In this document: positions 2,273 through 34,990 of the stretch, in pieces
Position numbering within the stretch: the first letter of the stretch is position 1
How the letters are laid out: the number at the start of each line of letters is the position of its first letter
Assembly: GCF_030273315.1 (NCBI RefSeq)
Contig: NZ_CP127176.1
Span: forward strand, 22,342-86,341
DNA length: 64,000 nucleotides
Direction: 5' to 3'
Source of the DNA: Natrialbaceae archaeon AArc-T1-2
Lineage (GTDB): Archaea > Halobacteriota > Halobacteria > Halobacteriales > Natrialbaceae
Notes under the pieces: model-generated
The model's input: the letters and a program-made list of their open reading frames with translations, nothing else
Databases searched by the model: none
What the model was told of the DNA's origin: nothing
Position numbers and translations under genes: made by a program

Positions 2273-2273
2273 T

Positions 2274-5200
2274 ATGAAATCAATCAAAGAAGTCTCGGAA
2301 GAGCTCGAGAACGATCTTCAACAGTACATCGAATCACGTTACCACCTCCATCACCCGCGGCTTCTCAAGGAACGTCGTGCCCTGATGGACGAGGGAGAGA
2401 CAGCCACCGAACCATGGGTCGAGGCAACACCGACCTATGTTTCGGGTGAACCCCTCAGAGAATTGGGCCTGCCGAGCGAAGTTGTCGATTTGTTAAAAGA
2501 TCTCGAAAGCGACGATCTCAACATCTTCGATCCGCCGTACAAACATCAGGCCGACGCCCTCCAATCGTTCTTCAACGAAGAGGACGATCTCATCGTATCC
2601 ACCGGAACAGGGTCCGGAAAAACCGAGATTTTCCTCTACTCAATTCTGGGTCAGCTCGCCCAAGAGGCAGCGCGAGGAGAGACAGCTGACCAACGTGGGA
2701 TACGGACATTAGTTCTCTATCCGATGAACGCCCTCGTCGCGGATCAACTCTCCCGGATGCGCCTACTCTTTGGTGACAAGGACGGGGCAGATACACTTGA
2801 GGACTACATGGGCCGGCGTGTACAGTTCGGGATGTACACGAGTCGTACACCCTATCACGGGGAGTACGACAAGAGTAAGAACGATAATCTGGTCAAGCCG
2901 GTCATCAATCGGTATCTCAAGTTAGAGGAAGAACAGCCGGACCTCTACGAACAACTCAAAGAAAAAGGCCGTATTCCAGCCAAGGATCTCGAAGGGTTCC
3001 GGAACAAGAATAAGAAAAAGGAGACTCACTTCCGTACTCAACCTGGCGACACCGAACTGTTCACGCGTCAGGAGATGCACACCCGCGATGGAAGCAATCC
3101 CCATGGCGGGACGCCGGATCTCCTGATCACGAACTATTCAATGCTGGAGTATATGCTACTCCGGCCGATCGAACAACCCCTCTTTGAGGATACCCGTGAA
3201 TGGCTGGCCGAGGACGAAGAGAACGAGCTGAATATCGTCCTTGACGAAGCTCACCTCTACCGAGGCGCCCAAGGAGCAGAGGTGGCGCTCCTGTTGAGCC
3301 GCTTGCTCCAGAAACTCGGGATATCTCGCGAACGTGTGCGCTTCATTCTCACGAGTGCGACGATGGGTGAAAACGTAGAGGAAGCAGCCCCAGACTTTGC
3401 GGCCCAGCTCACAACCGGAGATCCGGACGATTTCTCAGTAATCACCGGTGAGCAGGTGGAGTACGAAGGCGGAGAACCGAGCGAGAAACGCATGGCGCAA
3501 CTCCTAGAGCGAATTGGCTACCAACTCGATGATCCATCGAAGATTCGCAACGTTGCGAGCGAACGAGGCTGGGATCCTCTTGAAAGTGATGACGTAGAAT
3601 CGATCCGTTCGTACCTTGCTGACCAGTTAGTCGATGACCCACTCTTCAGGTTAGCACACGAACACCTTCGTGAAGAGCCACTGCGCCTATCGGCGCTTGC
3701 CGAAGAGTTGTTCGAGGACATCGATCAGGATCTGGCTCGTGAGGCGACGGGCAATCTTCTGTATCTTTGTACCGAGGCCCGCCAGGGAGAGGACCAGGCG
3801 TTGCTTCCGACGCGCCTGCATATGTTCCTCAAAGGGCTCCCCGCCCAGTATGCGTGTGTCAATCCTGAATGCAGCGGCCGCCGGGTTACAGAGGGAGAGA
3901 ACCTCCTCGGGCGCATCTACAGTAATCCGCACACGACCTGTGAGTCCTGTGGCAGTCGTGTCTTCGAACTGATTAGCCACCGCACCTGTGGAGCAGCATA
4001 TCTGCGCGCGTATCGACGCTCTGACGACGACCGCGGGCCGACGTTCCTGTGGTCAGATCCTGAGAGCAGCGAGGACTTGGACGAACTTCATCTCTTAGTT
4101 GAGGAACCTCGGGATGACCCAAATCCAGACCACGAACACGGCCGTTCGCTCGCCGAGACGACGACCTCACGAAACCTCTCGATTGCCTCCGGCCATCTTG
4201 TTGATGATCGGCACGTGGACGACGAAGGGGCGACCACTCATATCGAGGTTCAGGTCCCGACTAAAGAGCCGCCGAACGAGGACGGTGCGTGGAGTTGGAC
4301 TCAATGTCCGGCGTGCGGGATCAAAGAGCGACGCCGTCCGAATGGCGACACGAAGGTCGAAGATCTGGTCACCAAAGGTGAGGAGCCATTCGCGCACAGC
4401 GTCCGCTCGATGTTCGGTATCCAGCCGACCGACCCACTCAAAGAGGAGTTCCCCAACGAGGGGCGCAAGGTATTGTGCTTCTCTGACGGTCGACAGAAGG
4501 CGGCCCGCTTAGCTCGCGATCTCCAATCGAACGTTGAATCCGACTCGTTCCGCGAGGTTCTAACCGACATTTTTGGATCCGCGGACGGTGAAATCACGAT
4601 GGATCGGTTGTTCGCCGAGTTCGCAGTCTACTGTGCGAAAAACAACATCGTATTCTTCGACGACAGCGACCAATACACGAATCAGTCGGGCGTCGTGTAT
4701 AAGGGTTCACGCTCCCACTTCGAAGATATTCGTGGGAACCTGTCCGACATTGTCGATGAGTACTACCTTGAGTCCATCGACGATATTCCGGAGGTGCCAG
4801 CCGCACGCAATGCGTTGTCGGAGCGTCCCCGCCAGTATGAGGAACTTCTCCTCCGATCGTTGGGCGATGAACAGTACTCCATCACCGGCGCTCTCGTCGG
4901 GTACATTGCGCCGTCCGAGGAGGTATTTGAGAAAATCGATGAAGCCGTCCCTGAAATTGAGACAGACCAACTCAAGAGCATCCTCATCGAGGCGCTTCGT
5001 CATGCCTGCGAGGAACGGGCATTTGATTCAAATATTGAAGCCAGACGACGTTCGAACTCCTATCCCTATCAAAATTGGATTGACCCGGACGATACAGGGC
5101 TCCCCCACAGCGAAATAATCCCTGAATATGTTGTAGAATCACTCGACGACGAAGTGCCAGAAGAGGCGTGGTATAGTCTGAGACGGGCGTTGATGACGAC

Positions 5201-7697
5201 AGAGCCTGTGTTGTTTGGGGCCTCCCACGGCAATTACTTCGTCAATCCGAAAGCAACGACAATCGATCTCCGACTCGACGACGATTGGTACCGATGCGAA
5301 GGATGTCGCCGGTTCTCGGTCGTGTCACTCAATGATTCGTGTCCCTACGATGGGTGTCGCGGAACTCTCAGTCCGGTTAGTGACAATGACATCCATCTCC
5401 AGGCACGGAAGAACTTCCTTCGGAACCCGCCACGCGAAGTGCTCCATGGCGAACGGGACCCGCTCACGCTGCGTTCAGAAGAGCACTCTGCACAACTGAG
5501 TGCAAAGGACAACTCCGAGGCATTCGCACGCTCCGAAGAGTATGAACTCCTCTTCCAGGACATCCTCGTCGGGGACTCCGAGGCCGATCAGCCGATCGAC
5601 GTGTTAAGCTGTACGACTACTATGGAAGTCGGGATTGACATCGGGAGCCTCACTGGCGTGGCCATGCGGACGGTCCCGCCAGGACCAGAGAATTATGAGC
5701 AACGTGCTGGTCGGGCAGGACGTCGCGGAGCCGGCCTCTCGACGATCGTCACCTTCGCGGACAACTCCCCTCACGAGTCACACTACTTCGAGAATCCTGA
5801 AGAGATGATCACGAGCGAGGGTAACGCACCGGTCATCTACGCCGGCAACGAAAAGATCGCCCGACGGCACATCAACGCCTCGCTGCTTGCTCGGTTCTTC
5901 GATCCATCGGCCGTCGAGACGGAAGCTGCCGTATTCCGCTCGCTCAAAGGTACAGCCGAGTTCTTTGAAGGAGAAGGCGACCAAACCCTCGCCGCGTTCG
6001 AAGACTGGCTGGACGAAGAGATCTTCGCCGATTCGTCGTCGACGCTCGAGCAATTGGGTGCCCTCCTTCCGGATGCACTAGGAGGGGGACGTTCATCCGA
6101 CTGGGAGGTCGCATTAGTCCGCGACGCCGCTACAGAGTTCCTGAGCGAACTTCAGGAGCTAGAAGCCAAGACAGAATGGGAAGAGCAATCCACGGAGGAC
6201 GACGATTTACTTTCCGTCCTTCTGGATGCAGCCCTACTTCCGACGTTCTCGTTCCCAACTGATGTGGCCGATTTCGTCGTGCGCGAAAATGAGCCCGGGT
6301 CGTCACAGCCGAAGAACAAGTACCAGATGTCTCGGGATCTGAAACAGGCACTCTCAACGTACGTTCCAGGCCGAGAAATCGTCGTTGACAAGAAGACCTA
6401 CGAGTCCTACGGTGTCTATGTCAAATTCCCAGACAACCCGAAGAACCGAGTATCTGGCGAAGACTGGGGAGACCTCGATTGGTTGAACTGGTGTGATGTC
6501 TGTAAGACGGTCTTTGACGAGCATGATGAGAGTCTCGCAGCCAGGGATATGGAGTGTCCTGTCTGTGAGGGAGCGACCGTCAGTTCCCTTCAAATGTACA
6601 CCCCGGAGGCATTTGCACCGAAAGTCGATGAGACAGGTGCAGCTGAGAAAGGATCAGACTACAACGAGAACCGAGCCTACGCGACACAGCCGAAATACCC
6701 GCTGACGTCGACTTCTCACGAGAGTGAGAACGCTAGCGAGATGGCAGAGGAGAAATCTATTGGCCATTCGATAGTGGGGAAGATGAATGACGAACAGCTT
6801 CTTGTCGCTAACTTTGGGGCTGATGAGGATGGATTCGAGGTCTGCACCGATTGTGGGGCCGTTAGCCGCGAAGGCCCGCTCTCGAACCCACACGCCCGTC
6901 CATACCCCAAGGATCTCCGATTTGTTGGGGAATATGACTGGGATGACCAGTGTACCGGCTCAACAGTCACGACGAGTTTCAGCCACCGCTTCCCCAGTGA
7001 TTTGACCGTCCTCCAAATCCCGTTAGGTGATGAGATGGAGTTCGTTCCATCCGAAGCATGGTTCGAGACACCAGGGCAGTCGTTAGCTGAAGCATTAGTC
7101 ATGGGTGCATCTCGTGCGCTGGGTATCGAAGATGACGAACTCGAAGGTGGGTTCCGTACTCGTTCGGCAGAGCACGCCGACATCGACGCACGGGGCGTTA
7201 TCGAGGTCTTCCTCTTCGACACAACCGCCGGCGGTGCTGGCTTCTCATCGCGTGTCTGGGAGGAATTCGACGCCGTGTGTGCGGAAGCCCGTTCAATCCT
7301 CGAGAGCTGCTCATGCGATACGGCGTGTCACAACTGCCTGCGCCGGTATCAGAACCGTCATCTCCACGACTCGTTGAATCGCCACGAAGGCCTGGCCTTG
7401 CTCGATTACGCACAGGCGGGAACGCCGCCAACGCTTCGTCCTGAAAAGACACAGAGCCTGATAAAGCAACTCGAACGTGCCTTGGAGTTGAAGGAAGAAG
7501 ACGTTGCACTCAGGGCGATTAACGACCATAAATGGGAGATCAAGATTGACGGGACGACGATGACATTTGGTATTCGTTCTAGTCTGCGGCGTTCACGTGC
7601 CCCGACGTCGGCGACGTACGACGAGGACTACTCAGACTACGAGTTGTCCCAACGGTTGCCAGAGGTGGCTCACTCGATCGTCGACCAACTCCAATAG
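2274..7697 (+). CDS. Giant DEAH-box helicase with C-terminal DUF1998/MZB module
   Basis: An 1807-residue superfamily 2 helicase. Walker A STGTGSGKT is at residues 109-117, DEAH at about 324-327 (VLDEAHLYRG), the SAT-type motif III is LTSATMGE, and motif VI is QRAGRAGRRG at about 1143-1152. Several CxxC pairs lie between and after the RecA lobes. Near residues 1640-1700 is the cysteine cluster CSCDTACHNCLRRYQN that marks the DUF1998/MZB zinc module of MrfA/YprA helicases, found also in DruE of Druantia and DrmB of DISARM. The length is close to DruE. A large insertion separates the two helicase lobes. With a RecB-like nuclease downstream the likely role is ATP-driven remodelling or degradation of foreign or damaged DNA. 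I cannot assign it to a named system; no druH-like partner is visible. Confidence 0.92.
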   Translation: MKSIKEVSEELENDLQQYIESRYHLHHPRLLKERRALMDEGETATEPWVEATPTYVSGEPLRELGLPSEVVDLLKDLESDDLNIFDPPYKHQADALQSFFNEEDDLIVSTGTGSGKTEIFLYSILGQLAQEAARGETADQRGIRTLVLYPMNALVADQLSRMRLLFGDKDGADTLEDYMGRRVQFGMYTSRTPYHGEYDKSKNDNLVKPVINRYLKLEEEQPDLYEQLKEKGRIPAKDLEGFRNKNKKKETHFRTQPGDTELFTRQEMHTRDGSNPHGGTPDLLITNYSMLEYMLLRPIEQPLFEDTREWLAEDEENELNIVLDEAHLYRGAQGAEVALLLSRLLQKLGISRERVRFILTSATMGENVEEAAPDFAAQLTTGDPDDFSVITGEQVEYEGGEPSEKRMAQLLERIGYQLDDPSKIRNVASERGWDPLESDDVESIRSYLADQLVDDPLFRLAHEHLREEPLRLSALAEELFEDIDQDLAREATGNLLYLCTEARQGEDQALLPTRLHMFLKGLPAQYACVNPECSGRRVTEGENLLGRIYSNPHTTCESCGSRVFELISHRTCGAAYLRAYRRSDDDRGPTFLWSDPESSEDLDELHLLVEEPRDDPNPDHEHGRSLAETTTSRNLSIASGHLVDDRHVDDEGATTHIEVQVPTKEPPNEDGAWSWTQCPACGIKERRRPNGDTKVEDLVTKGEEPFAHSVRSMFGIQPTDPLKEEFPNEGRKVLCFSDGRQKAARLARDLQSNVESDSFREVLTDIFGSADGEITMDRLFAEFAVYCAKNNIVFFDDSDQYTNQSGVVYKGSRSHFEDIRGNLSDIVDEYYLESIDDIPEVPAARNALSERPRQYEELLLRSLGDEQYSITGALVGYIAPSEEVFEKIDEAVPEIETDQLKSILIEALRHACEERAFDSNIEARRRSNSYPYQNWIDPDDTGLPHSEIIPEYVVESLDDEVPEEAWYSLRRALMTTEPVLFGASHGNYFVNPKATTIDLRLDDDWYRCEGCRRFSVVSLNDSCPYDGCRGTLSPVSDNDIHLQARKNFLRNPPREVLHGERDPLTLRSEEHSAQLSAKDNSEAFARSEEYELLFQDILVGDSEADQPIDVLSCTTTMEVGIDIGSLTGVAMRTVPPGPENYEQRAGRAGRRGAGLSTIVTFADNSPHESHYFENPEEMITSEGNAPVIYAGNEKIARRHINASLLARFFDPSAVETEAAVFRSLKGTAEFFEGEGDQTLAAFEDWLDEEIFADSSSTLEQLGALLPDALGGGRSSDWEVALVRDAATEFLSELQELEAKTEWEEQSTEDDDLLSVLLDAALLPTFSFPTDVADFVVRENEPGSSQPKNKYQMSRDLKQALSTYVPGREIVVDKKTYESYGVYVKFPDNPKNRVSGEDWGDLDWLNWCDVCKTVFDEHDESLAARDMECPVCEGATVSSLQMYTPEAFAPKVDETGAAEKGSDYNENRAYATQPKYPLTSTSHESENASEMAEEKSIGHSIVGKMNDEQLLVANFGADEDGFEVCTDCGAVSREGPLSNPHARPYPKDLRFVGEYDWDDQCTGSTVTTSFSHRFPSDLTVLQIPLGDEMEFVPSEAWFETPGQSLAEALVMGASRALGIEDDELEGGFRTRSAEHADIDARGVIEVFLFDTTAGGAGFSSRVWEEFDAVCAEARSILESCSCDTACHNCLRRYQNRHLHDSLNRHEGLALLDYAQAGTPPTLRPEKTQSLIKQLERALELKEEDVALRAINDHKWEIKIDGTTMTFGIRSSLRRSRAPTSATYDEDYSDYELSQRLPEVAHSIVDQLQ

Positions 7698-19038: not shown

Positions 19039-19464
19039 ATGGAGATAGGGTTGGTGAGCTGTACGAAGGCGAAGGAGGACTCGGCGTCGACGCCGAGGGA
19101 ACTCTACGAACCCTCCGCGCTGTTCCGGAAGGCCCGGCGTTACGTTGAGGAGAACCACGATGTGTGGTACGTGCTTTCGGCGAAGTACAACGTTCTTGAT
19201 CCAGACGGCTCGCCGATCGAGCCCTACGACGAGACGCTGAACAACGCTGGCGTCGAAGAGCGACGAGAGTGGAGCCGAGCCATCGTCGGACAGCTACGGG
19301 AGCGCGACCTGCTCGCGGAGGGGAACACTCTCGTCATTCACGCTGGGAAGGCGTACTACGAGGAACTCCTGCCGCTGCTCCACGAGGAGCCCGTCGACGT
19401 CGAGATTCCAACCGAGGGACTACGGATGGGCGAGACGCTGTCATGGTACAATGAACGAATCTAG
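19039..19464 (+). CDS. DUF6884-type protein
   Basis: A 141-residue protein read from ATG 19039 (MEIGLVSCTKAKEDS), where the family begins; the frame is open 57 nt further upstream. Motifs are a first strand ending VSCTKAK, LYEPSALFRKARRYVEE, WYVLSAKYNVLDPD and a late VIHAGKAYYEELLPLL. This resembles DUF6884, a family with similarity to part of tRNA-guanine transglycosylase-like folds and often found in defence or mobile contexts; its biochemical role is not known to me. The last 14 bases overlap the next gene, so it is translationally coupled to the tandem GIY-YIG protein. Confidence 0.75.
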   Translation: MEIGLVSCTKAKEDSASTPRELYEPSALFRKARRYVEENHDVWYVLSAKYNVLDPDGSPIEPYDETLNNAGVEERREWSRAIVGQLRERDLLAEGNTLVIHAGKAYYEELLPLLHEEPVDVEIPTEGLRMGETLSWYNERI

Positions 19465-20314
19465 GTTCTACGCCGCAGATTGGCTCGGAGTAGTGTGGTC
19501 AAATTGGGGGACTCTCGATCCCGGCGGCGACCACCTATCCACGTTCTCCACTGACGAGGGGCTCTACCGCGTTCGCCACCCCGCCCGCCCCGGTCTGGAG
19601 TATATCGGCGAGACTGGGCGCAGCCTCCGTGGTCGAGTCCGTGCGCTCGCCCACGGGGCGTTCGCCGAGGAAATGCCTTATCGCGATCCACACACCGCGG
19701 CACCATGTCTCTGGGCTGTCCATCAGGAGGAGGCCGAGAAACTGGAGGTGTCGGTCACGACGCCGACGCTCGCTGAGGACAAGCAATCTCGAAAGGCGTT
19801 CGAGGACGCGCTAATCGCAGTCTGCCGCCGTGAAATGGGCGAGAGTCCGACGGCGAACTTCGGCCGGATTATTGACGGCTATCGGCAGTCGACGTACCGC
19901 AGCGGCGAGGAACGCGGCGGGCCGCTCGAACCAGGCCAGACGGTGTCTAACACCGAGGACGGTGTCGGCCCGCTGGATTGGAGCCGGAGCAGCGACGTGC
20001 TCTCGGAGGACTGGATGGGGCTCTTGTGGTCGTCTCCGCGACCGCTAGCAGACGCGGACACGTCGATTCCGACGGATGATGGGCTGTACCGGATCTGGCG
20101 CGAGGGCGAGGCACCGCCGCTGGAGTACATCGGGCAGAGTTCGAATCTCAAGTCACGGCTGTATCGTCACCGGCGAAACCGGCACGAGGCGTTGCTGTTC
20201 TCGTACTCGGAACTGGGGGATCACGACGCCCAACACAAGCGCGAAGAGGTTGAGACGGAGCTTATCGGCGTTCACTGGCTGGAAGTTGGGGAGAGTCCAC
20301 AAGATCAGTTCTAG
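19451..20314 (+). CDS. Tandem GIY-YIG domain protein
   Basis: A 287-residue protein with two GIY-YIG-like modules. The first, near residues 33-120, has EGLYRVRHP ... LEYIGETGRSLRGRVRALAHG. The second, near 205-280, has DGLYRIWRE ... LEYIGQSSNLKSRLYRHRRN and a late Glu-containing helix. In both, GLYR stands for GIY and EYIG for YIG, and the Arg of the catalytic helix is present. GIY-YIG enzymes cut DNA with one metal ion. Two copies in one chain could give two nicks, or one copy may be structural. It is coupled to the DUF6884 gene; a similar two-domain design occurs at 26564-27958. Confidence 0.82.
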   Translation: MNESRFYAADWLGVVWSNWGTLDPGGDHLSTFSTDEGLYRVRHPARPGLEYIGETGRSLRGRVRALAHGAFAEEMPYRDPHTAAPCLWAVHQEEAEKLEVSVTTPTLAEDKQSRKAFEDALIAVCRREMGESPTANFGRIIDGYRQSTYRSGEERGGPLEPGQTVSNTEDGVGPLDWSRSSDVLSEDWMGLLWSSPRPLADADTSIPTDDGLYRIWREGEAPPLEYIGQSSNLKSRLYRHRRNRHEALLFSYSELGDHDAQHKREEVETELIGVHWLEVGESPQDQF

Positions 20315-20409: not shown

Positions 20410-21327
20410 ATGGAGAATGAAATAGGAGTTCCTTGGTCAGAACATACCGTAGTCGAGAAGTCAGAACTACTGGACAACCTCTCTGATGCTGGTGAATGGC
20501 GTGAAGACAAGATTAAGACGTCCTCTTTCATCGTCAGTCCAAGTTACGGAACCCTGGATTATGACGGCTTCGTGAGTTTTCTTCGGAACAAATTCATGTT
20601 CTTTGCGCTGTCGGAAGAGGAGATTCAGGAGTCCGAACGCCCTCATCTTGAAGCACAGCAGCTCTCAGATTACAGGGATGATGCTAAGATGGATGGCAAG
20701 TGGGGAGAGCTGATTCTATTTACAATGGTTGAAGGTTTCCTTGACATCCCCATGATGTCGCACAAGCTTGGGTGGAAACAAAACCCGACTGATCAGGTTA
20801 AGGGATCTGACGGCCTCTTCTTCGGGGAATACGAAGGATCCCCAACGTTAGGAATTGGTGAGGCGAAGATGTACACCGATTTGGATGATGGGATTGAGGA
20901 AGCTCTTGACAGCACAGATCGATTCCACGGAGAAGATAGCCAACTCCGAAATCAGCACGAGTTAACGGTTGCTATGGGTAATCCGAGCGATAATCTCTCG
21001 AAAGAGAAGATCGAACTGCTCTCATCCCTTTTCACGGGGGAATCCCAAGATTACCAAATGCTACACCCCATTTTCGTCGGATATGAGGATGAAGAGCTGG
21101 AGGAATTCCAGACAAAGCCGGTCGAGGACGATCAGGAACTAGTAGACCAGCTCCAAGACCATGTCGAGGATACTGACTTACTCTCCAAAGTAACCGACTC
21201 TCTGGAGGGTGACTACAGTCACCTTCGAAAACACTGGTTGACATTCTTTTTCCTCCCACTAGAGGACAAAGATCGATTTGTAGAGAACGTTAAAGCGGCT
21301 ATCTACCCCTGGACAACGAACCACTAA
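20410..21327 (+). CDS. hamA: Hachiman defence nuclease HamA (DUF1837)
   Basis: A 305-residue protein with the DUF1837 arrangement: KWGELILFTMVEGFL near residues 97-111 (motif I Glu), VKGSDGLFFGEYEG near 133-146 (the Asp) and GIGEAKMY near 151-158 (E-x-K), giving a PD-(D/E)XK-like active site. In Hachiman, HamA holds this nuclease inactive until HamB encounters damaged or single-stranded DNA, and then degrades DNA broadly. The stop overlaps the hamB start by one base (TAATG). Base composition is visibly more AT-rich than the neighbouring plasmid genes, consistent with acquisition as a unit. Confidence 0.88.
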   Translation: MENEIGVPWSEHTVVEKSELLDNLSDAGEWREDKIKTSSFIVSPSYGTLDYDGFVSFLRNKFMFFALSEEEIQESERPHLEAQQLSDYRDDAKMDGKWGELILFTMVEGFLDIPMMSHKLGWKQNPTDQVKGSDGLFFGEYEGSPTLGIGEAKMYTDLDDGIEEALDSTDRFHGEDSQLRNQHELTVAMGNPSDNLSKEKIELLSSLFTGESQDYQMLHPIFVGYEDEELEEFQTKPVEDDQELVDQLQDHVEDTDLLSKVTDSLEGDYSHLRKHWLTFFFLPLEDKDRFVENVKAAIYPWTTNH

Positions 21328-23903
21328 TGTCTACATACGAAAACGCAGCGGACCTAGAGTTCTTCAATGACTGTCTCGATACACTGATAAAAGATCTGCT
21401 CTATAATGATCTCGGCGTTACAGATTATCGTTGGGATCAGAACTCGGAGAGTAAACTCCAAAAGAGTGCTTGGGTAGCATCACTTCTCGCTTCCAGTGAT
21501 GACGAGGAACACCAGTCTAAGGCCCTTTCCTTTGCGATTCTCGCATATATTGAGAAGCGAGGGACCGATGACGAGGAGATGTACGAACGGTACCTCTATA
21601 TCGTTCTCTCTCGCATTGGTAATCTTCAAACGTTCAATACCGTTCGGCGAGAACAGGCAGATGTCAGCTTCGAGGAGAGGCTCATTTCATCGCTTGACTC
21701 TGCGTTAGGCTTCGAGCTGAGTTCTGACCTCCAGCAGCACGAACTCGGTGATGGGACTGTGCTGTCCTCCTTCCAGAAGGATATCCTAAATGCGCTTCAG
21801 GCAGGGAAGGACATCGCGATATCCGGTCCGACATCTTCCGGGAAGTCATTCATACTCCGGAAATACATCCAGAGTGAGCTCAAAAGCGAGGATGGCTTCG
21901 AAGCAATCTACGTCGTCCCGACTAGAGCACTCATTGCGGAGGTGAGCGAGAAGCTCTCCAGTCTCAACGATGATATAGACGGAGAGCAAGAGATTGAGGT
22001 CAGAACCGGCGCATATTTCGAGGAGGAATCGGAGGATCTAGAAACAGATTTAAATTCGTTCTTAGTAGTTACTCCTGAGCGGTGTCTGCGGCTCATCGAC
22101 GAGGACACTAGGGCGAGAATTGAGCCAGACCTGATATTCTTCGACGAGATTCAGAACGTCCAGGACGGGCAGAGGGGTGTCTTATTCGAGGATATCATTC
22201 AATTACTCAGTGAATCCTGGCCGGAAACTCAAATCGTCGCCGCAGGTCCCTATCTTGAGGAGCCACAGGATACTTTAAGCAATCTGACAAACCGAGAGGT
22301 CGTACAGATCAAAACCGCATTTACACCGGTTCTTCAAATGAAGGCGATTATTCGGTTCAAGAGAGCAAAAAACCAATCCAGATCTATACGGATGGTTGAT
22401 GTTGTCCTCTACAGTCCTTCTGGAGACAAATTAGAGTTCACGATAGCCGAACCGGACGACCTCACGTATACTACGGTCAACAATAGCAAGACTAGAGCGC
22501 TGACCACCATAATCGATGAATATGGGCAAAATAGCCAGAATCTGGTATACGCCAGCAAAACCAACCTAGCCGAGGATCGAGCCGACGCTATCGCAAACAA
22601 CCGGAACCGAGAGATAACGTCTGCGAGAATCGATGATCTCACCGAATTCCTGAAGAACACGATCCACGAAGACTATCCACTCATTGACCACCTCCAAAAA
22701 GGAGTGGCCTTCCACCACGGTCGCGTACCGAAGATTGCGAGAGAGGAGATAGAAGACCTCTACCGGTCGAAAGTAGGCCTTGACACAATCGTATGTACTT
22801 CTACTCTACTGGAGGGGGTGAACCTCCCCGCGGAGAAAATTTTTCTGACTAGTGCATATCGAGGGGACAATGAGCTGTCAGAACTCGACTTCCAGAACCT
22901 CGTCGGACGGGTCGGTCGCGTTGATTCCCGGTTGTACGGTTCTATCTATTGCGTTGAGGCCGAAGATGACGAATGGGTGGATGAGAAATTGGATAGCGAT
23001 ACGGAGGAATCGGTCAATCCTGCTACCTCACAAGCTACGGATAACCCAAACAAACTCATCACCGCGCTCGGAAGCAACGACCTTCGGCAGCTCAAAGACG
23101 CATCGACGCGGTACACGTCGATTCTCCTTCGCTCTCGCTACCTCAAGTCCGACTACGATGTCGACAAATACCTCTCCAACAAGGGGCTCTCGGACTCAGA
23201 CATCTCCTCAGCGAAAGACGAACTCGATCGGACTCTCGAAGACATCGAGATCCCGGAGAAACTGCTGAGGCGGAACCCAACTGTCGATCCCGTGGAGCAG
23301 AACACGCTCTACAGGCTGGTGATGAAGAACCCGGAAAGGTGGGTGATTGGTGAGAATACAGCAGAATACAGTTATGATAAACTCATGCGGATCACTCAGC
23401 AGTTGAATCAGGTATTCAAGTTCACCAAGGATGATGAATACGGGATCGATCCCTCAAACCGAGAAACCAAGCACGGAGCGCTGGAGCCGATCGTAGTAGT
23501 TGCGAATCAGTGGCTTCGAGGAGAGACGTACAAGTCCATGATTGATTCTAGGCAAGCGAACGTTGAGGATGAGGGCCTGAGTAAGTGTATTAGAACGATC
23601 CTTGATCTCGTGAACGACGACGTTCGATTTATTCTGGTCAAGTACTACGGGATGCTGGTCGATATGCTAGAAGAAACCGACTACGAGATGGGTAAGTGGG
23701 CAAGCAACTTCGACCAGATGTTGGAGATGGGATCGATGAACTTCGGGGAGTTGCGTCTCATGTCGAAAGGTGTAGATCGGTCGGTTGCGCTGCAGTTAGG
23801 AATCCCACCGAACGTCGATGATGTCGAAGAATTTCTTGAAAACCGTCGAGGGAAGATCCCAAAATTCTTCGCTCGACACCTAGAGTCGCAGGGGGTCCTC
23901 TAG
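21327..23903 (+). CDS. hamB: Hachiman defence helicase HamB
   Basis: An 858-residue superfamily 2 helicase. Walker A is SGPTSSGKSF near residues 164-173, motif Ia VVPTRALIAEV, motif II FFDEIQN (DEIQ at about 273), FHHGRVPK and TSTLLEGVNLPA in the second RecA lobe, and motif VI as LVGRVGRVD near 525. The GRVGR form and long C-terminal helical part are typical of HamB and of Ski2-like relatives. Translational coupling with hamA confirms the pair. All helicase motifs are intact and no frameshift is present, so the system appears functional. Confidence 0.9.
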   Translation: MSTYENAADLEFFNDCLDTLIKDLLYNDLGVTDYRWDQNSESKLQKSAWVASLLASSDDEEHQSKALSFAILAYIEKRGTDDEEMYERYLYIVLSRIGNLQTFNTVRREQADVSFEERLISSLDSALGFELSSDLQQHELGDGTVLSSFQKDILNALQAGKDIAISGPTSSGKSFILRKYIQSELKSEDGFEAIYVVPTRALIAEVSEKLSSLNDDIDGEQEIEVRTGAYFEEESEDLETDLNSFLVVTPERCLRLIDEDTRARIEPDLIFFDEIQNVQDGQRGVLFEDIIQLLSESWPETQIVAAGPYLEEPQDTLSNLTNREVVQIKTAFTPVLQMKAIIRFKRAKNQSRSIRMVDVVLYSPSGDKLEFTIAEPDDLTYTTVNNSKTRALTTIIDEYGQNSQNLVYASKTNLAEDRADAIANNRNREITSARIDDLTEFLKNTIHEDYPLIDHLQKGVAFHHGRVPKIAREEIEDLYRSKVGLDTIVCTSTLLEGVNLPAEKIFLTSAYRGDNELSELDFQNLVGRVGRVDSRLYGSIYCVEAEDDEWVDEKLDSDTEESVNPATSQATDNPNKLITALGSNDLRQLKDASTRYTSILLRSRYLKSDYDVDKYLSNKGLSDSDISSAKDELDRTLEDIEIPEKLLRRNPTVDPVEQNTLYRLVMKNPERWVIGENTAEYSYDKLMRITQQLNQVFKFTKDDEYGIDPSNRETKHGALEPIVVVANQWLRGETYKSMIDSRQANVEDEGLSKCIRTILDLVNDDVRFILVKYYGMLVDMLEETDYEMGKWASNFDQMLEMGSMNFGELRLMSKGVDRSVALQLGIPPNVDDVEEFLENRRGKIPKFFARHLESQGVL

Positions 23904-25774: not shown

Positions 25775-26401
25775 ATGGCTGTACTGGACGATCTTTCAGG
25801 GTTCGAGTTCAAGGACGTGATAGAGGACGTCTTCCGCAATCTCGGCTACGAGAACGTCCGTCAGGCCGACCGAACCGCCGACGAGGGTCGCGCGTCATCA
25901 TGGAGGAGGTCGTCGACGGCACCCGGCGCGCGATCATCGTGGAGTGCAAGCACACGGGGACGGTCGGGCGCCCGGTCGTCCAGAAGCTCCACTCGGCGAT
26001 CGCGACGTTCGACTTCGACAGCCCGAAACGTGGGATGGTCTTCACGACCGGCCGGTTTACGAACCCAGCCCAGGAGTACGCCAACCGTCTCCAAGAAAAC
26101 GATGGCCCCCATCTACGAGTTGCTCGACGGCGAGGACCTCCGGGAGATCGCCTGCACCAGCCACACGAAAACGGAGCGGCTGGAAGGCGAGCCGGTCTGT
26201 ACGGGCTGTGCGGTGACCGAACGGTTCGTGCTGAAGACGAAGTACTTCTACGACGACTAGAATCTCGAGGTGTTCCGCGAGGAGTACGCCGCCATGCCCC
26301 TTCACGAGAAGGCGATGGAGAACAAGATGCTAGCGGGAGGTAGTGTGGTCGCGGCACTTCTGGTGGTCATCGGCCTACTCGTGGTCGGCGGCGTCATTTA
26401 G
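25775..26401 (+). pseudogene. Broken Mrr-like restriction endonuclease with C-terminal membrane segment
   Basis: From ATG 25775 the product begins LDDLSGFEFKDVIEDVFRNL (typical Mrr start). At about 25889 one base is missing and the correct reading moves to the next frame, which carries RRAIIVECKHTGTVGRPVVQ (the E-x-K core), VFTTGRFTNPAQEYA. Near 26105 an extra C restores the original frame (IYELLDGEDLREI, then CTSHTKTERLEGEPVCTGC). A TAG at 26258-26260 interrupts it again before a short tail ending in a hydrophobic segment (VVAALLVVIGLLVVGGVI), a probable membrane anchor. With three lesions it should be inactive. The intact gene would have been a membrane-tethered Mrr-type nuclease. Confidence 0.82.
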
Positions 26402-26563: not shown

Positions 26564-27958
26564 TCAGTGACCGTTTTCGACAGGTCGAAAATCGAACTCG
26601 CGGCTGTTCGCCGGTGCGTCATCGGGGACCTCGTTGTGATTGAGCAGGTACTCGGGCCACGCCTCATATGCGAGTCCGACGAGTAGAGGCTCCACTTCTG
26701 CGAGGTACGCTGGATAGCCGTACGGTCCTGGATATACTTCTGGATCCCAGGCGCGAATCCACAGATACGTCTGTTCTTTGAGTTGGTGCGTCCCTTGTTC
26801 GAAGAGTTCGCTCGCCCAACTGAGTTTCTTCGACTCTTCTCCGAATACTGTCTCCGAGAGTTCTCCTACGTGCCAATAGCTTCCGTCACCCCAACGAGCG
26901 AAACTCCGTGTCCCGCTTCGGTCTTTCGCAATCTCCTCGAAGTTAGCACTCAGTTCGTTCTTTTTCCCGTACGCCTCACCTTTTCCGATGTACCGTGGGA
27001 CAACATCTGTTGGGGAGGGATTCACAGAGTTGAGTTGAAAGAGGACATAGAGTAAGCCACTCTCTCCCTCTTTCACGCCGTTCCTGTGAACACATCGTTT
27101 TCCCTCTCGGCGAATCCGTTCGTCAATAGCGTCGCTTCGCTTGAGCACTGTCGAGGACCCAAGTGTCTTCGTCTCGACAACGAGGTCTTCGTCAGTCTCG
27201 AAGAGCGGTATCGGATCTGCCACCTCGGAGTCGTTGATGTCTCGACAGATGGTCTTCTCGACCCACTCGTACCAGAGTTCGATCTTATTTTCGGCAGTCA
27301 CCTTCTCAGCGGGGAGTTCAGCGAGTCGTGCAGTTTCCTCATTCAACGATTTGTTGTCCTCGTCAACCCATTCGTGACCTACTTTCCCCATCTCGTGGGG
27401 GACACGGTTGGGGACGAAGTCGCGATTGGCGAACACACGGTCGAACCGGGAAAGTGAGTGAACCAGACCGACCATCTTCCCCTCGAGTTCGTGCCGGTAC
27501 GTCGGGTACCCGTACGGACCCGTCTCTAAATCGTCGACGTCGACTACCCACGCGTACAGCTGTGATGCCGATTTTTCATAGACTGTTGCGATGTGGTCGT
27601 ACTTCCCGTAACTGCCCCACGACCCATCGTCTTCCCACTCCGAAATGGGAAGGGCGTCCCGGAGCTTTCTGAAGTGGTTCATCAGTCGACTCGCGACGTT
27701 GCTTGTTTCGCCGATGTACACCGGAATCACGTCGAAAGGTCCGTCTACGGGCTCGTCAAGGAAGTACAACATATACAGATAGTCACCACTCCCCCGACCC
27801 AGGCGATACGTATCGTAATCGTCGGCCATCGATAAGTCCGAGCCGCTGTCGTTGACCATCGGAACCGGATCCGGAGTTGCAGCCGACTGGATGTCTGAGA
27901 GAATTGCCCTCCGCACAAATTCATCCCAGACCTTCTCTTTTGATCGTCTATCCGACAT
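26564..27958 (-). CDS. Large tandem GIY-YIG domain protein
   Basis: A 464-residue protein with two distant GIY-YIG-like modules. Module 1, near residues 55-110, has GDYLYMLYFLDEP ... VIPVYIGETSNVASRLMNHF. Module 2, near 285-345, has SGLLYVLFQLNS ... VVPRYIGKGEAYGKKNELSANF. Each is followed by a similar 'W(G/D)xxSYWH / GSYGKYDH' segment and a YPGPYGYPAYLAEVEPLLVGL-type end (GPYGYPTYRHELEGKMVGL in module 1). The chain is therefore an internal duplication of about 220 residues. Module 2 lacks the Arg after YIGKG at the expected place, so only one half may be catalytic. No partner gene adjoins it. Confidence 0.8.
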   Translation of the reverse strand: MSDRRSKEKVWDEFVRRAILSDIQSAATPDPVPMVNDSGSDLSMADDYDTYRLGRGSGDYLYMLYFLDEPVDGPFDVIPVYIGETSNVASRLMNHFRKLRDALPISEWEDDGSWGSYGKYDHIATVYEKSASQLYAWVVDVDDLETGPYGYPTYRHELEGKMVGLVHSLSRFDRVFANRDFVPNRVPHEMGKVGHEWVDEDNKSLNEETARLAELPAEKVTAENKIELWYEWVEKTICRDINDSEVADPIPLFETDEDLVVETKTLGSSTVLKRSDAIDERIRREGKRCVHRNGVKEGESGLLYVLFQLNSVNPSPTDVVPRYIGKGEAYGKKNELSANFEEIAKDRSGTRSFARWGDGSYWHVGELSETVFGEESKKLSWASELFEQGTHQLKEQTYLWIRAWDPEVYPGPYGYPAYLAEVEPLLVGLAYEAWPEYLLNHNEVPDDAPANSREFDFRPVENGH

Positions 27959-29688: not shown

Positions 29689-30108
29689 CTATTCTTCAAT
29701 TCCGTCGAAGGAGATTCCTCTGATGCGATATTGATGTTTCCCTTCGATGTCTTTGCGACGAGTTGCCCGTTCTGAGTCGGTAATGATGAGTACTGGACTT
29801 GAGCGACCGTCTCGCCGGGCGTAATTCTTAAGATCTGGAATCGCCGCCGACACGGATGTCTCGACTTCGATTAATGACAGAGGAAACTTTCCGAAGAAAT
29901 CTGCCCCCAACATTGAGAAATTGCGTATATCCACAATGAGGTCTGGTGCTCCTGATTGTCCGTCGAAGTGGCGGCGATCAACCGACAAGTCACCGAGTTT
30001 TTCTTCGGAACCGTTTTTCCGAACTACTAACTCCGCGTCATCGTACTTCTCTTTCAGACATTCGTACGTATTCGCAACGATCTCGTTGTGCTCGTAGGTA
30101 TCAGTCAT
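29689..30108 (-). CDS. Small nuclease-like protein, fourth gene of the ATPase/coiled-coil operon
   Basis: 139 residues from ATG 30108, one base after the upstream stop; a GTG at 30117 would overlap. The order of features, an N-terminal helix (NEIVANTYECLKEKYDDAEL), GAPDLIVDIRN, FPLSLIEVETS and a helix-strand end with PVLIITDSERATRRK, resembles a PD-(D/E)XK fold: D in PDLIVD and E-V-E in place of E-x-K. The expected Lys is missing, so it may be an inactive or atypical nuclease. It is translationally linked to the coiled-coil genes. Confidence 0.65.
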   Translation of the reverse strand: MTDTYEHNEIVANTYECLKEKYDDAELVVRKNGSEEKLGDLSVDRRHFDGQSGAPDLIVDIRNFSMLGADFFGKFPLSLIEVETSVSAAIPDLKNYARRDGRSSPVLIITDSERATRRKDIEGKHQYRIRGISFDGIEE

Positions 30109-30109
30109 G

Positions 30110-31651
30110 TTACGCACCCTCGATCGAGATGGAGACTAAGCCTTCATCCTTGAGGTCATGAATGACTCCAAGAACCTCCGTCTGGTCCATCTCTAACTCA
30201 CCAGAAATCGACTTGATTACATCGCTGTTCGTACCCTTGTTTGCTTCCCCATCTAATATGAACTCGAATACACTCGCTTGTGTTGGATCGAGATGGTCTT
30301 CAGTAATGATGTCCGTAATCTCGGTGCGGATCGTTCGGCACTCCCGTGCCTGTTGCACGAGGTCTTCGACAGTCTCTGCTCGGGATACGGCTAGTTCCAC
30401 TTCATTGAGTGACTGGGCTTTTTCGTTGATCCCGAATATCTCGGCCAGTTCTTTCCCGGTTTGGATTTCATGTTCAATTCTATTTCTGAGGCCCTTGAGT
30501 TCCTGTTCTGCCTTTTCGATCAGCTCGGAGAATCCCTCCTGTGCTTCGTCGTAGTCCTCTATATCCCCACTGAGTATCCTGTCACGGGTGGTGAGAAGGT
30601 CACGATGTTTAGTATCGATTCTCGATAAGGATGTTCGGATAAAATCGAGGGACTCTGTCGAGTTATCTGGTACTCCAAATCGACGGACAGACTCGGTAGC
30701 AACGTCGTTCATCACATCAAAAATAGAGAGGACCTCACGACAACCCGTGACTACATCATTAACAGTTTCGGCGGCTCGTAATTTGTTTTCAAGCTCATCT
30801 TGCCCGGTGTCGGTTGGAGAACCCACTGACACTTCGGTCAGTAACTCGTATCGTTCGTGGAGCTTAGATACGACATTCTCGGCGTCTGAGAGAGTCTTCT
30901 CTGCTTCAAGGACACGCTCGCGAGCCAGTGTTGTGAACTGCTCGAAGGCATTCGCGTCGTCGACAATTGATTGGATCCGGTCGAAGAGTAAATCATCAAT
31001 ACGGGTACGAACATCTGACCCCAACGGCTCGGGGAGGTCACTGTTCCAGGGATACGGCCAACGCCCTGCAATATCTTCCAGATCATCCGCGATATTATCA
31101 ATCTTATCAACGCTACTTACATCGGCCAGTTCTCCCTTGACCAACCGAGCTACTGAGGTGTGTACCGTTCCATCAGCATTGATTGACTGCAAGGCGGTTT
31201 TTGCAGTATCAATGGCCGAGTTAACTCGATCGACATCTTGTTCGACGACCTCAATCAACTCTTCTCTGACATCCTCATCCAGGGGACCTGTCCCAGCGTT
31301 AACCAACCAATCTTCGATATCTTCGACCGTTTTTTCAGCCTCGGGATGATGAAGGACACTTCGAAAGTCTGCCACAAAGTCCTCAAGATCGTCTTCGAAC
31401 TCACCTGGTTTGAACGATGCGGAGCCTGCAACGAGATTCTCGAAGAAATCACCTAATGAGCGATCGAAGGCCTCTCGCACCATCTTCTGCTCTTCTTCGT
31501 CGAGATTATTCAGTGTCGACCTTGTTTCTTCGTCCAGCTCGTCGAGGGTGTCTTCAAGATCGTCCAATGCAGTCTTCTCGTCGTGGATGTCTTGCTCTAC
31601 CTCTAGCGCCTCCTCAAGAGTGCTGAGAGAGTCTGGACCAGCATCACTCAT
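30110..31651 (-). CDS. Long coiled-coil protein with C-terminal winged helix
   Basis: 513 residues from ATG 31651. Nearly all of it is acidic helix: heptad-like stretches at about 10-50, 60-110, 230-290 and 350-400, broken near residue 195 by a short Pro/Gly/Trp-rich loop (GRWPYPWNSDLPEPLGSD). The last 70 residues (DPTQASVFEFILDGEANKGT, then SDVIKSISGELEMDQTEVLG and DLKDEGLVSISIEGA) form a clear winged-helix pattern. The design recalls kleisin/KITE or MukE-like partners of SMC-type systems, but no sequence match is recognised. The start overlaps the previous gene by 8 bases. Confidence 0.75.
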   Translation of the reverse strand: MSDAGPDSLSTLEEALEVEQDIHDEKTALDDLEDTLDELDEETRSTLNNLDEEEQKMVREAFDRSLGDFFENLVAGSASFKPGEFEDDLEDFVADFRSVLHHPEAEKTVEDIEDWLVNAGTGPLDEDVREELIEVVEQDVDRVNSAIDTAKTALQSINADGTVHTSVARLVKGELADVSSVDKIDNIADDLEDIAGRWPYPWNSDLPEPLGSDVRTRIDDLLFDRIQSIVDDANAFEQFTTLARERVLEAEKTLSDAENVVSKLHERYELLTEVSVGSPTDTGQDELENKLRAAETVNDVVTGCREVLSIFDVMNDVATESVRRFGVPDNSTESLDFIRTSLSRIDTKHRDLLTTRDRILSGDIEDYDEAQEGFSELIEKAEQELKGLRNRIEHEIQTGKELAEIFGINEKAQSLNEVELAVSRAETVEDLVQQARECRTIRTEITDIITEDHLDPTQASVFEFILDGEANKGTNSDVIKSISGELEMDQTEVLGVIHDLKDEGLVSISIEGA

Positions 31652-33299
31652 TGTTGACCTCCATGTGTTCATTCAGGGACTGAAGCTGGGTTCGCCTGCT
31701 TTCACGTTCCGTTTCGAGTTCGTCAATTTCACCAGCGAGCCGTTCCAGCTGATCAACAACTTGGAATACCTCATCAATGTCTTGACGTGCATCCGTTAAC
31801 ATTTCATCCCACTCTTCCTGAATATCGCGGATATTATCTGCTCCATTCGAGAAATCAAGGCCAGGGAGTTCTGATTTCACATCTTCGAGAACTGTTTCAC
31901 ACCTTTCCTCGACTGTATCTTTTACAGCATCTTTTGGTGGGAGATCGACATTCACCGAACTGGCCTCGATCGTCGCATATGCAGAGTTAATGTCGTCTAT
32001 CTTTGTTTTTGTCCGGTCGGCGAGACTCTGGAGACGATTCGTGTGTTCGCCGAGGTCTGTTTCTCGGGATTCGAGTTCTTGACGCCGGTCGTCGATATTC
32101 TCCTGAAGAGTTGAGTACAGACTAGAACGTCCCTCACGATCGTATCCAAGCACGAATTTTGCAGTGGGTTGTGAAACCCGATCAGCGACCCGACAGAACT
32201 CTCGAAGATCACCGACGACACTAGAGTCGTGTTGTACTTTCCCACTGGGATACACCGAGCTATGATCTTCAATACGGTCGTATACTGCATCGAGCTGATC
32301 AATCGTCTCATCAAGAGATTCTTTTGCTTTCTCGTACTCGATATTGATTTTATTCTCTTCGTCTTGAATAACCTGGATCGCATCGACCATCCGAACTAGT
32401 AAGTCTGCGAGATCAGATCCCGTACCGTCGTATTGATTCGAGAGAACTCGAAGGAGGCCTGGCTCTTGCATGTACGTCGTTGCCAAATCTGCGCGAGGCG
32501 AAAGCCGGTTGAGTTTCGTTCGGAGATTTAGCGTATCGGCCTCCTCTGCCTTTTGAATCGCCGTGGTGAATTCCGAACGAAAGTCGTTCTGCCGCTGATC
32601 GTATCCATATTCAATGATACGCGTGTAACCACCACCACCCCCCGAAATTGGGCCCAGGTATTTTTTAGAGTCTAGACCTCGATCACGCGCTGTCTCAAAG
32701 AACCTAAGACACCTATCTCGTTCTTCGGAAGCGGCACGTGCTAACAGGAGATAATCGACACGGGCGTTCTGGGAGGCTGTCAACCGATTCTCGAACATAT
32801 CGAATAGCTCTGTAGAGCTTTGATCTCCCAAGGTGACGGGAAAGAGCGTTTTGAGATTCTTCTGGAACTCGTCCGTCTGCTGTTCAATCCTCGTTGCGAA
32901 GTACTCGTTGAGCTTTTCGATGTAGTAATCAATTTTCCGAACGCCCTCGTCGGCGATGTCGTCTCGACTGATCGTCTCCGGGATGGGAGCAGTCTGATCA
33001 AGTTCTAGTAGATTGTACAGAAGGCTGGTCGCAAAGGTGTCCAACCGTCGTTCGTCAAGTGTTGTGACTTGGAGTTGATCAAGTTCGGCGGCTACTTGAA
33101 TACGTTCGTCGCTGCTGGAAATGAATTCTTGGGTAGCAGTCTCGACATCCCGGATGTCGTCATCGTTCCCAAGGAGTACGATCGTGAATATACAATTCGG
33201 CTCAAGCGCGTCCTTGGCAACTTCATCCTGTAAAAATGGCTGAACTAGGGGTTCAAGCGCCGACTCTTCGGCCGGAAGGGGATAGAGTGAAGTGTTCAT
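31644..33299 (-). CDS. Coiled-coil protein of the four-gene operon
   Basis: 551 residues. An alpha/beta-looking N-terminus (residues 1-75, with NCIFTIVLLGNDDD) is followed by helical regions: SQNARVDYLLLARAASEERDR near 175-195, a Gly-rich break GPISGGGGGYTRIIEYGYD near 220-238, and strongly heptad-like coiled coils from about 310-370, 400-450 and 490-545. No P-loop is present. The Gly-rich loop is a possible hinge or ligand site. I do not recognise the family. ATGA overlap with the ATPase gene upstream implies fixed stoichiometry with it. Confidence 0.75.
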   Translation of the reverse strand: MNTSLYPLPAEESALEPLVQPFLQDEVAKDALEPNCIFTIVLLGNDDDIRDVETATQEFISSSDERIQVAAELDQLQVTTLDERRLDTFATSLLYNLLELDQTAPIPETISRDDIADEGVRKIDYYIEKLNEYFATRIEQQTDEFQKNLKTLFPVTLGDQSSTELFDMFENRLTASQNARVDYLLLARAASEERDRCLRFFETARDRGLDSKKYLGPISGGGGGYTRIIEYGYDQRQNDFRSEFTTAIQKAEEADTLNLRTKLNRLSPRADLATTYMQEPGLLRVLSNQYDGTGSDLADLLVRMVDAIQVIQDEENKINIEYEKAKESLDETIDQLDAVYDRIEDHSSVYPSGKVQHDSSVVGDLREFCRVADRVSQPTAKFVLGYDREGRSSLYSTLQENIDDRRQELESRETDLGEHTNRLQSLADRTKTKIDDINSAYATIEASSVNVDLPPKDAVKDTVEERCETVLEDVKSELPGLDFSNGADNIRDIQEEWDEMLTDARQDIDEVFQVVDQLERLAGEIDELETERESRRTQLQSLNEHMEVNNE

Positions 33300-34960
33300 C
33301 GGGGGTCCTCCTGAATAGTGTCACCGAATTCTTGCAACCGATCTGATGCAGCCTGCATATTCTCCAGCATCGTAACTAGCTCCTGATACTGGTCGTCCGT
33401 GTTCGTTTCGTGTCCTGCAAAACTCAATCGTGGATTCGTAATGAGACTTGGGAATGCTAGACTCGGCGTCTTCAGGCCAATCGATACGTAAGAATCCATC
33501 GTGGAGGATTCGCTTGTCGAAAAGAGGTCGAAGAAGTCAGCGAAGTCTTGATATATATCTTGTGCACTCATTTGATCAAGACTCTGCGTGACATCATAGA
33601 GGAACTCGATAGTCTCCTCTTCCCCGTTACCTAATTCTTCAAGAGCAATATCGTGCATCCGGCGAACGAGCGGACGAAGGATCATATCCACAGCCCTATC
33701 TCCTTGTGCTGGGGCTGGACTCATGTTCTGCCCGAAGACCATTTCTCCGTCTTCGTCAGCGATACTTTGGAGTACCCGCTCTCCAAATTGTGAGAGCTGC
33801 GAATCAGATACTCCAGAGTGATACGCATCAAGGTTCGTTAACCCCTGTTCAATTGTCTTGTATACCTCTCCGACAGGTGTTAGATGTGCGTCACAAAGCG
33901 CGAAATCGGTAGCTTCTGACTGGAGTGCGGACTGGAAGGCCGCTGGTTCATCAAATTCGCTAAGTTGATGTGGTGAAGGTGTGGTGAGGAGGGCCGCGAT
34001 ACGGTCGCGTGATTTGTTGCTGAGGTCGTCGAGATATGAGTCCAGACTCTCTCTGTCCAAGACTTCAACACGGGAAATTTGTTGTGTTGCAATATCGAAA
34101 AGACGGTTGTAGTTGCCTTCAACATCGTCTCCGAGGTTGGCTTTTGCATCGAGAGCCGATTGTAGCCAGCCAGGGCGTCCTCGTGAGTGCCACCAAGCGT
34201 AGTTTTCGGTCCCGGCAGACAAGTCACGTTCGAGGATTTGGTGAACTTGTCTCGGACGGATAATCGGCAGATTGATGCTCTGGACTCGCCGCGCTTCTGC
34301 TTCACCAAGCTCGTGAGCGCTGGCGTAGCCAAACGCGCCGATCATGTATACTCGGGAAGTCCCTTTATCAATTTCGTCGACGACCTCTCGGAGAGGTCCC
34401 GTCGTTCCTTCCGTGTGTTCATCAAGCCGTTTGTATCCCTCTTCCATCTCGTCAACAAGAACAACGAGTTCGTTTTCCTTCGACGCAATCTGTTCAGGGT
34501 CCTCCACTCCAAGTGCCGAGAAATACTCGTCGGGAGTGGGTCGTTGGCGGGCTCTCGGTAGGTAGTCGTCGGTATCGAAGGGCTTGTTCTGTTCGATCTT
34601 GTTGCATATCTCTCGGAGCCTCTCGATACAGATGTCCTCAAAGTATCCATGGAGGTTCGATTGATGGATGACATCGTGTCCGTCGGCTTCGGCTCGTTGG
34701 ATAAGTTCGTCAATAAGATCACTAAGATCAAGATAGATAGCTGGCTTGGCCTGGTCTTGCCAAGCATATCTGAATCCGTGTAGGAGCAGCAAGCTCTTGC
34801 CTGCCCCAATAGCTCCCACGGCGTATGTGGCCTCAACTGGGTCGGGGAACTGTTTGATGTTAGCTTCAATCGTTTCTCGGCACAGTCTGTGTCTCTTAGT
34901 TAGGTCTTTCCACTCGACATTGAGCGTAGCTGTACGTTTTATCCCTCTACTTTTGCTCAT
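33296..34960 (-). CDS. P-loop ATPase heading the four-gene operon
   Basis: 554 residues from ATG 34960. Walker A is GAIGAGKS near residues 49-56 and Walker B is LVVLVDEMEEGY near 165-176, followed by a sensor-like strand (RVYMIGAFGYAS) and an Arg-containing segment (EARRVQSINLPIIRPRQVHQ) that could be an arginine finger. The rest is helical, with a possible helical bundle near the C-terminus. It resembles AAA+/STAND-type ATPases and, loosely, the ATP-binding proteins of BREX (BrxC/PglY), but is much shorter. TATA box at 34982-34990 fits a leaderless mRNA. The tryptophan- and Met-containing lid is intact. Confidence 0.82.
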   Translation of the reverse strand: MSKSRGIKRTATLNVEWKDLTKRHRLCRETIEANIKQFPDPVEATYAVGAIGAGKSLLLLHGFRYAWQDQAKPAIYLDLSDLIDELIQRAEADGHDVIHQSNLHGYFEDICIERLREICNKIEQNKPFDTDDYLPRARQRPTPDEYFSALGVEDPEQIASKENELVVLVDEMEEGYKRLDEHTEGTTGPLREVVDEIDKGTSRVYMIGAFGYASAHELGEAEARRVQSINLPIIRPRQVHQILERDLSAGTENYAWWHSRGRPGWLQSALDAKANLGDDVEGNYNRLFDIATQQISRVEVLDRESLDSYLDDLSNKSRDRIAALLTTPSPHQLSEFDEPAAFQSALQSEATDFALCDAHLTPVGEVYKTIEQGLTNLDAYHSGVSDSQLSQFGERVLQSIADEDGEMVFGQNMSPAPAQGDRAVDMILRPLVRRMHDIALEELGNGEEETIEFLYDVTQSLDQMSAQDIYQDFADFFDLFSTSESSTMDSYVSIGLKTPSLAFPSLITNPRLSFAGHETNTDDQYQELVTMLENMQAASDRLQEFGDTIQEDPR

Positions 34961-34981: not shown

Positions 34982-34990
34982 ATTATAAAC
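34982..34990 (-). promoter_or_regulatory. TATA box of the four-gene operon
   Basis: On the minus strand TTTATAATA is centred 26 nt before ATG 34960, the normal haloarchaeal distance to the transcription start, so the transcript is probably leaderless. The rest of 34991-35368 holds no convincing gene. Confidence 0.55.

Follow-up and report, generated by a model that had tools for sequence, protein, structure and literature searches.

A four-gene ATPase and nuclease-like module shared by haloarchaea and bacteria as a candidate antiviral restriction machine

BrxC (PglY), the large ORC/Cdc6-type AAA+ ATPase of BREX, carries a C-terminal coiled coil and has been proposed to form a hexameric scaffold with a coiled-coil tail (PMC12839542). 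Other described systems that bear on gene clusters of this kind are McrBC/CoCoNuT (PMC11090510), class 2 DISARM (DrmA/B/C/E/MII; PMC9142583) and the PbeABCD/CxC ABC-ATPase systems (PMC6459918 and PMC10853773), together with Wadjet (JetABCD). Here we describe a four-gene operon, A-B-C-D, on the minus strand (34960-29689) of a 64,000-nucleotide stretch of contig NZ_CP127176.1 from Natrialbaceae archaeon AArc-T1-2, a stretch that we call the window. The four genes represent a module conserved in archaea and bacteria, and the balance of evidence tips towards an antiviral restriction machine. Our confidence is moderate for a role in defence and lower for the exact mechanism, and we infer that the target would be viral.

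Operon layout and comparison with described systems

All four open reading frames are intact. Gene A (33296-34960) encodes a 554-residue protein of the ORC/DnaA/STAND-like sort of AAA+ ATPase, gene B (31644-33299) a 551-residue protein with a probable coiled coil in its C-terminal part, gene C (30110-31651) a 513-residue probable coiled-coil protein with a likely winged-helix C-terminus, and gene D (29689-30108) a 139-residue protein with a predicted restriction-endonuclease fold and a PD...ExE motif. The genes join exactly as the original prediction, made from the sequence alone, had described: A and B share a 4-base ATGA overlap, B and C overlap by 8 bases, and C and D are separated by a one-base gap (alternative starts are an in-frame ATG at 31672 for C and a GTG at 30117 for D). 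Gene A is preceded by a TATA-like box (TTTATAAT, minus strand, 34982-34989), the end of which is 21 nt from the start codon, and as far as sequence can indicate this spacing fits a leaderless start. The operon was also said to differ in composition from its neighbours; at 49.8% G+C it does fall below the window as a whole (54.9%), but G+C is similarly low in the window's Hachiman genes (49.4%). The host genome comprises three contigs, and the operon lies on C3 (86,341 bases), which is likely a plasmid because it encodes an Orc/Cdc6 protein.

None of the four proteins passed a curated Pfam or NCBIfam cut-off, and PADLOC returned weak matches only, mostly of the coiled-coil kind, in agreement with the earlier statement that no gene falls in a nameable family. 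Against PHROGs, A and the window D had no match, and B and C weakly matched tape-measure and unknown families, as is usual for coiled-coil sequences. A phage origin was rejected given these nil or weak PHROGs results and the lack of any relative of A among viral contigs. In the openly licensed PMC papers searched, we found no description of the gene set.

The operon may resemble BREX (PMC12839542) in pairing a large AAA+ ATPase, possibly of ORC/Cdc6 type, with a probable C-terminal coiled coil in a candidate defence operon, but here the ATPase is split into two genes and is followed by a nuclease-like protein of its own. For the BrxC order of ORC-type AAA+ domain, wHTH and coiled coil, the model of A overlapped with BrxC no better than with other AAA+ proteins. 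BrxC did not figure among the PADLOC hits, and hhalign comparisons with haloarchaeal BrxC profiles gave probabilities of 1-25% over short stretches only. PglZ (PF08665), searched for in 13 genomes, was never near the module; the host's own PglZ lies on contig C1 and the module on C3. Plain membership of BREX was rejected at the level of sequence, for want of a BrxC match and a nearby PglZ, and we retain the weaker statement that the module may work like BREX, a likeness that rests on the BrxC scaffold proposal. Separately, the host chromosome carries a BrxC gene (G000:C1:215342-218917, locus L071; 908 bits) about 9 kilobases from a PglZ gene. This BrxC shows 81-89% identity to its counterparts in six further haloarchaeal genomes from several families, an unusual degree of conservation for a defence gene.

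The remaining systems differ from the operon in other respects. The module may also work like McrBC, but it failed the sequence tests for McrBC/CoCoNuT (PMC11090510): D consists of a single 139-residue domain carrying ExE, too short for a DUF2357 region; A and D have no Pfam match of any kind, and no Asn-x(1-3)-Asp pair equivalent to the McrB Nx(xx)D motif occurs among the invariant columns of A. Class 2 DISARM (PMC9142583) is linked to the module by position, with A-B-C adjoining drmA-drmB-drmC in two genomes (G054 and G191), but no DISARM model was matched by A, B or C. Similarly, PbeA- and PbeC-like genes accompany AB-C-D in G045, but A is an AAA+ rather than an ABC ATPase by predicted fold, and the other scanned loci have the module without Pbe (PMC6459918 and PMC10853773 for the Pbe and CxC systems). 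The analogy drawn earlier with Wadjet, based on four genes comprising an ATPase, coiled coils and a small, nuclease-like last gene, did not hold: the predicted fold of A is AAA+ and not SMC or ABC, A has no JetC match, and the only hit was a coiled-coil-type match of B to JetC2 (expect value (E) 0.061).

Predicted products of the four genes

By its Walker motifs and predicted fold, A is an AAA+ ATPase. The Walker A motif (GAIGAGKS, residues 49-56; minus strand, 34793-34816) and Walker B motif (VVLVDEMEE, residues 166-174; minus strand, 34439-34465) bear out the P-loop reading of the original prediction, since G49, G52, G54 and K55 of the former and D170, E171, M172 and E173 of the latter do not vary across an alignment of 30 rows, the window protein among them. 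In Foldseek searches with the A model the best match was the archaeal ATPase 2qen, with NLRC4 among the top rows, and the predicted fold resembles replication-initiator AAA+ proteins. A stretch of 281 residues also aligned with the N-terminus of BrxC, tied with other AAA+ proteins, and matches in BFVD were clamp loaders and other AAA+ proteins. When the PDB was searched by sequence with profiles of A, AB and D, no hit fell below E 0.01.

Genes A and B, taken earlier for separate factors, instead encode the two halves of what is one protein in other lineages, because a single gene for a protein of about 1,020-1,115 residues takes their place in bacteria and in other haloarchaea. A genome-contig search recovered four bacterial metagenome-assembled genomes (MAGs; Dehalococcoidia, Desulfobacteraceae, Firmicutes and one unplaced) in which the A homolog runs on into a far longer frame, and the three complete copies of this fused AB span 1,084-1,114 residues. 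In profile comparisons, A matched the first half of the bacterial fusion (probability 100, E 8.5e-66) and B its columns 588-1108 (hhalign; probability 98.7, E 2.1e-16). Haloarchaea too have fused AB proteins, of 1,022-1,076 residues, in 6 of the 392 genomes sampled from the order and additionally in G719; the five of these seven that were aligned match the greater part of the bacterial fusion (E 1.3e-50). Four of the 392 have the split form.

Gene C encodes a long, probably coiled-coil protein, and its C-terminus is likely a winged helix. The weak matches to B and C are of the coiled-coil kind expected from the earlier description, and we rate the coiled coils as probable; the winged helix was read by eye and from an alignment of the last 86 residues of C with bacterial C (E 2.9e-5, probability 74), and it stands as likely only. 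Clear C homologs lie directly after B in all four split-type loci, and a C-type gene of similar size directly follows AB in all seven fused-type loci, with weak homology between the two types (E 3.7e-6, probability 87). The kinship of C across the split, fused and bacterial forms rests mainly on position, size and make-up, profile homology being weak.

For gene D, a restriction-endonuclease-like fold of the PD-(D/E)xK superfamily is predicted, and 20 of the best 24 rows of the structure search were titled restriction enzymes, nickases or McrBC. The nuclease layout proposed at first survives in its PD...E portion (Pro55-Asp56; minus strand, 29941-29946; invariant in 39 sequences, with the fragments P0094 and P0095 left out of the alignment) and in the predicted fold, but not in its lysine: the position of the (D/E)xK lysine is occupied by Glu, so that PD...ExE replaces PD...(D/E)xK. 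The ExE site (Glu81-Val-Glu83; minus strand, 29860-29868) was placed by eye, the automatic alignment being off by one residue there. Three divergent haloarchaeal D proteins have ELE at this site, and L028/P0060 does not have the second Glu. The ExE form is compatible with activity in BamHI, and D may likewise be catalytic.

Conservation of the module and distribution of gene D

The set of genes is more than a chance arrangement, since it recurs in other haloarchaea and in bacteria. Eleven haloarchaeal loci were compared, four split (the window, G054, G060 and G191) and seven fused (G258, G232, G122, G211, G045, G642 and G719), and in all eleven a C-type gene directly follows B or AB. Of the 392 genomes sampled from the order, 10 carry A. 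Outside the order, a fragment from an archaeon of the same phylum (G455, locus L087) has an interrupted A, a B and, where C would be expected, the beginning of another gene. AB-C-D order was seen in two of the four bacterial contigs, the two long enough to show D, and a third contig has AB with a short C-like frame close to the contig end.

The conservation of all four genes together, which the original prediction had put forward for survey, was borne out for A-B-C but only in part for D. Of 13 genomes with the module, 8 have D, which always comes immediately after C and has no second copy elsewhere in the genome; the other 5 lack it. In G258 and G232 a third gene does follow C (L016:10139-10786 and L017:14049-14699), but it was rejected as a dead D, having no PD...ExE motif and aligning with D of G122, G211 and G045 in its C-terminal part only (hhalign E 0.0045, probability 8%); D is counted as absent from both genomes because this homology was not supported. 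A search of 293 genomes of the order recovered D from six, five of them at module loci and one (G027) as a solo gene, so that D is not quite confined to the module. The solo D-like gene (L094:9011-9406) has three neighbours read by eye: a 106-residue protein that resembles a coiled coil, a gene likely to encode a transposase, and a pair that may be McrBC-like. Among clusters of A, 8 of 29 have a longest contig of the same size as that of a D cluster, the pairing having used the size of the longest contig per cluster only.

In a tree of A, which included 6 of the 27 fusion clusters, both DISARM-linked copies fell in one clade of 14 rows (SH-aLRT, a likelihood-ratio branch support, of 100), one row being identical to the G054 copy. 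No D was found in the G054 or G191 genome, and none of the other clusters of this clade, which include 11 mostly metagenomic ones, paired with a D cluster by longest contig, some of their contigs being short; gene context within the clade was read for the G054 and G191 copies. D-bearing rows lay in two other clades, bacterial fusion loci contain D as well, and in a deep clade of four rows (P0026-P0029) no D was seen. From its presence in two other clades of A and in the bacterial fusions, and its absence from the DISARM-linked clade, D was probably ancestral, with one loss or more in the line leading to that clade.

Defence neighbours, proposed function and rival explanations

The links of the module to defence are strong but circumstantial. 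Two genomes of different families, G054 and G191, have nine genes in common in different arrangements, comprising A, B and C together with DrmA (55% identity between the two), DrmB (50%), DrmC (34%), a HEAT protein whose C-terminus is DrmE-like (29%), a C5 methyltransferase (52%) and an HhH-GPD protein (61%). The drm genes of G191 were recognised by PADLOC hits and those of G054 by their identity to them, and both genomes matched the DrmA model. In G054 A-B-C lies 236 bases downstream of drmA-drmB-drmC on the same strand, and in G191 the two sets are convergent. A census of DrmA with a single model (PDLC02576), which may miss other subtypes, gave matches in 57 of 293 genomes (40 at E 1e-100 or better); three of these genomes have A (G054, G191 and G060), and only G054 and G191 have it beside DrmA. 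Their DrmA proteins were mutually closest among 30 DrmA loci, and the next closest shares 39.6% identity with the DrmA of G054. In the window genome this single DrmA model matched nothing. The HEAT-repeat protein of 1,209 residues (L010:7688-11317) scored 25.8 bits against a DrmE_C cut-off of 27 and is a possible new DrmE variant. The HhH-GPD protein (L011:6315-7094 and L014:8910-9695), found with the C5 methyltransferase in both loci that join DISARM to A-B-C, is perhaps a glycosylase or nicking partner.

Other copies of the module had different partners. AB-C-D shares one strand with the PbeA- and PbeC-like genes of G045. In G232 the module, there without D, shares one strand with type II methyltransferase genes, the homologs of which are divergent from the module in G258. 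Two large genes, one of them UvrD-like by eye, flank the module in both G211 and G642 and are conserved between these genomes (52% and 54% identity). Both G211, at a distance of about 7 kilobases, and the Desulfobacteraceae contig have a D12-type methyltransferase and a GHKL-type ATPase, but their identity as the same genes was weak (BLAST E 7e-4 and 0.008) and was not accepted. A gene adjoining the G122 copy matches the PDC-S25, ThsA and Dsr models. In G060 and G719 no recognised defence partner was noticed, their neighbours not having been scanned with a defence library. With no described system matched by sequence and A-B-C recurring beside DISARM, Pbe and methyltransferase genes, the suggestion of an undescribed defence system stands; the observation behind the original prediction was confirmed and its interpretation supported in part.

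We propose that AB would assemble into a ring or filament around or along DNA and that C would link this complex to DNA through its tail. Upon meeting foreign or unmodified DNA, AB-C might license the predicted nuclease D to cut, through an ATP-gated release, and in D-less loci the module could drive a partner nuclease, such as the PLD nuclease DrmC where it is linked to DISARM, in G054 and G191; ring formation and all that follows it are inferred. As a tentative extension, plausible but short of probable, AB-C may be a portable engine passed among unrelated restriction systems (DISARM, Pbe, methyltransferase-based systems and UvrD-type helicase pairs) that drives whichever nuclease is at hand, or in the window form acts alone via the ExE nuclease D. 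If true, an unnamed cross-domain family of ATPase-driven defence complexes would join the catalogue, the energy-coupling part of restriction systems would be a swappable unit, and some haloarchaeal DISARM and Pbe systems would need A-B-C as a third party. Being small and open to assay, the nuclease-like D with its ExE motif would be a convenient protein for testing the idea.

Among the alternatives, AB could be a far-diverged scaffold ATPase of the BrxC/PglY type, the module then being a stripped-down relative of BREX without PglZ or BrxL that assembles on DNA and would recruit D as effector; we regard this as unlikely, though less so than the other alternatives. Slightly less likely again is abortive infection, in which A would sense infection and D would degrade host and viral nucleic acid so that the cell dies. 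The ORC/STAND-like AAA+ fold class is used in sensors, and the range of folds matched by A (2qen as best, NLRC4 among the top rows) is consistent with such a role, as is the gene matching PDC-S25, ThsA and Dsr that flanks the G122 copy. However, partners such as DISARM and methyltransferases serve to tell self DNA from non-self and not to kill the host cell, which speaks against this reading.

A role in the upkeep of plasmids or mobile elements (partition, replication control or exclusion of rival plasmids) instead of antiviral defence would suit a module whose ATPase resembles replication initiators in fold and which is found on the 86 kb window contig with its Orc/Cdc6 gene and on Haloquadratum walsbyi C23 plasmid NC_017457. 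We consider it improbable, since just 1 of 72,556 plasmid records gave a match, four copies are on contigs longer than 1 Mb (G191, G232, G122 and G719), others are in bacterial MAGs, and the linkage to drmABC and Pbe points elsewhere. Least probable is a DNA-repair complex with helicase-nuclease partners: the large-gene pair with its UvrD-like member beside the module in G211 and G642 would fit, but the patchy occurrence of A (10 of 392 genomes, as above) is unlike that of housekeeping repair, and the same module adjoins DISARM and Pbe. An antiviral restriction machine is the reading that we prefer.

The placement of the operon in a defence-rich region, as first described, was corroborated on the window contig. 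DruD-like and DruE1 genes of a Druantia type I-like system (446-7697; DruE1, 1569 bits) occupy the left end of the window, and a HamA/HamB Hachiman pair lies at 20410-23903. Two proteins (26564-27958, without Pfam match, and 19451-20314) have YIGET-type stretches that are GIY-YIG-like by eye, and a fragment of an Mrr catalytic domain (PF04471) is present at 25900-26343.

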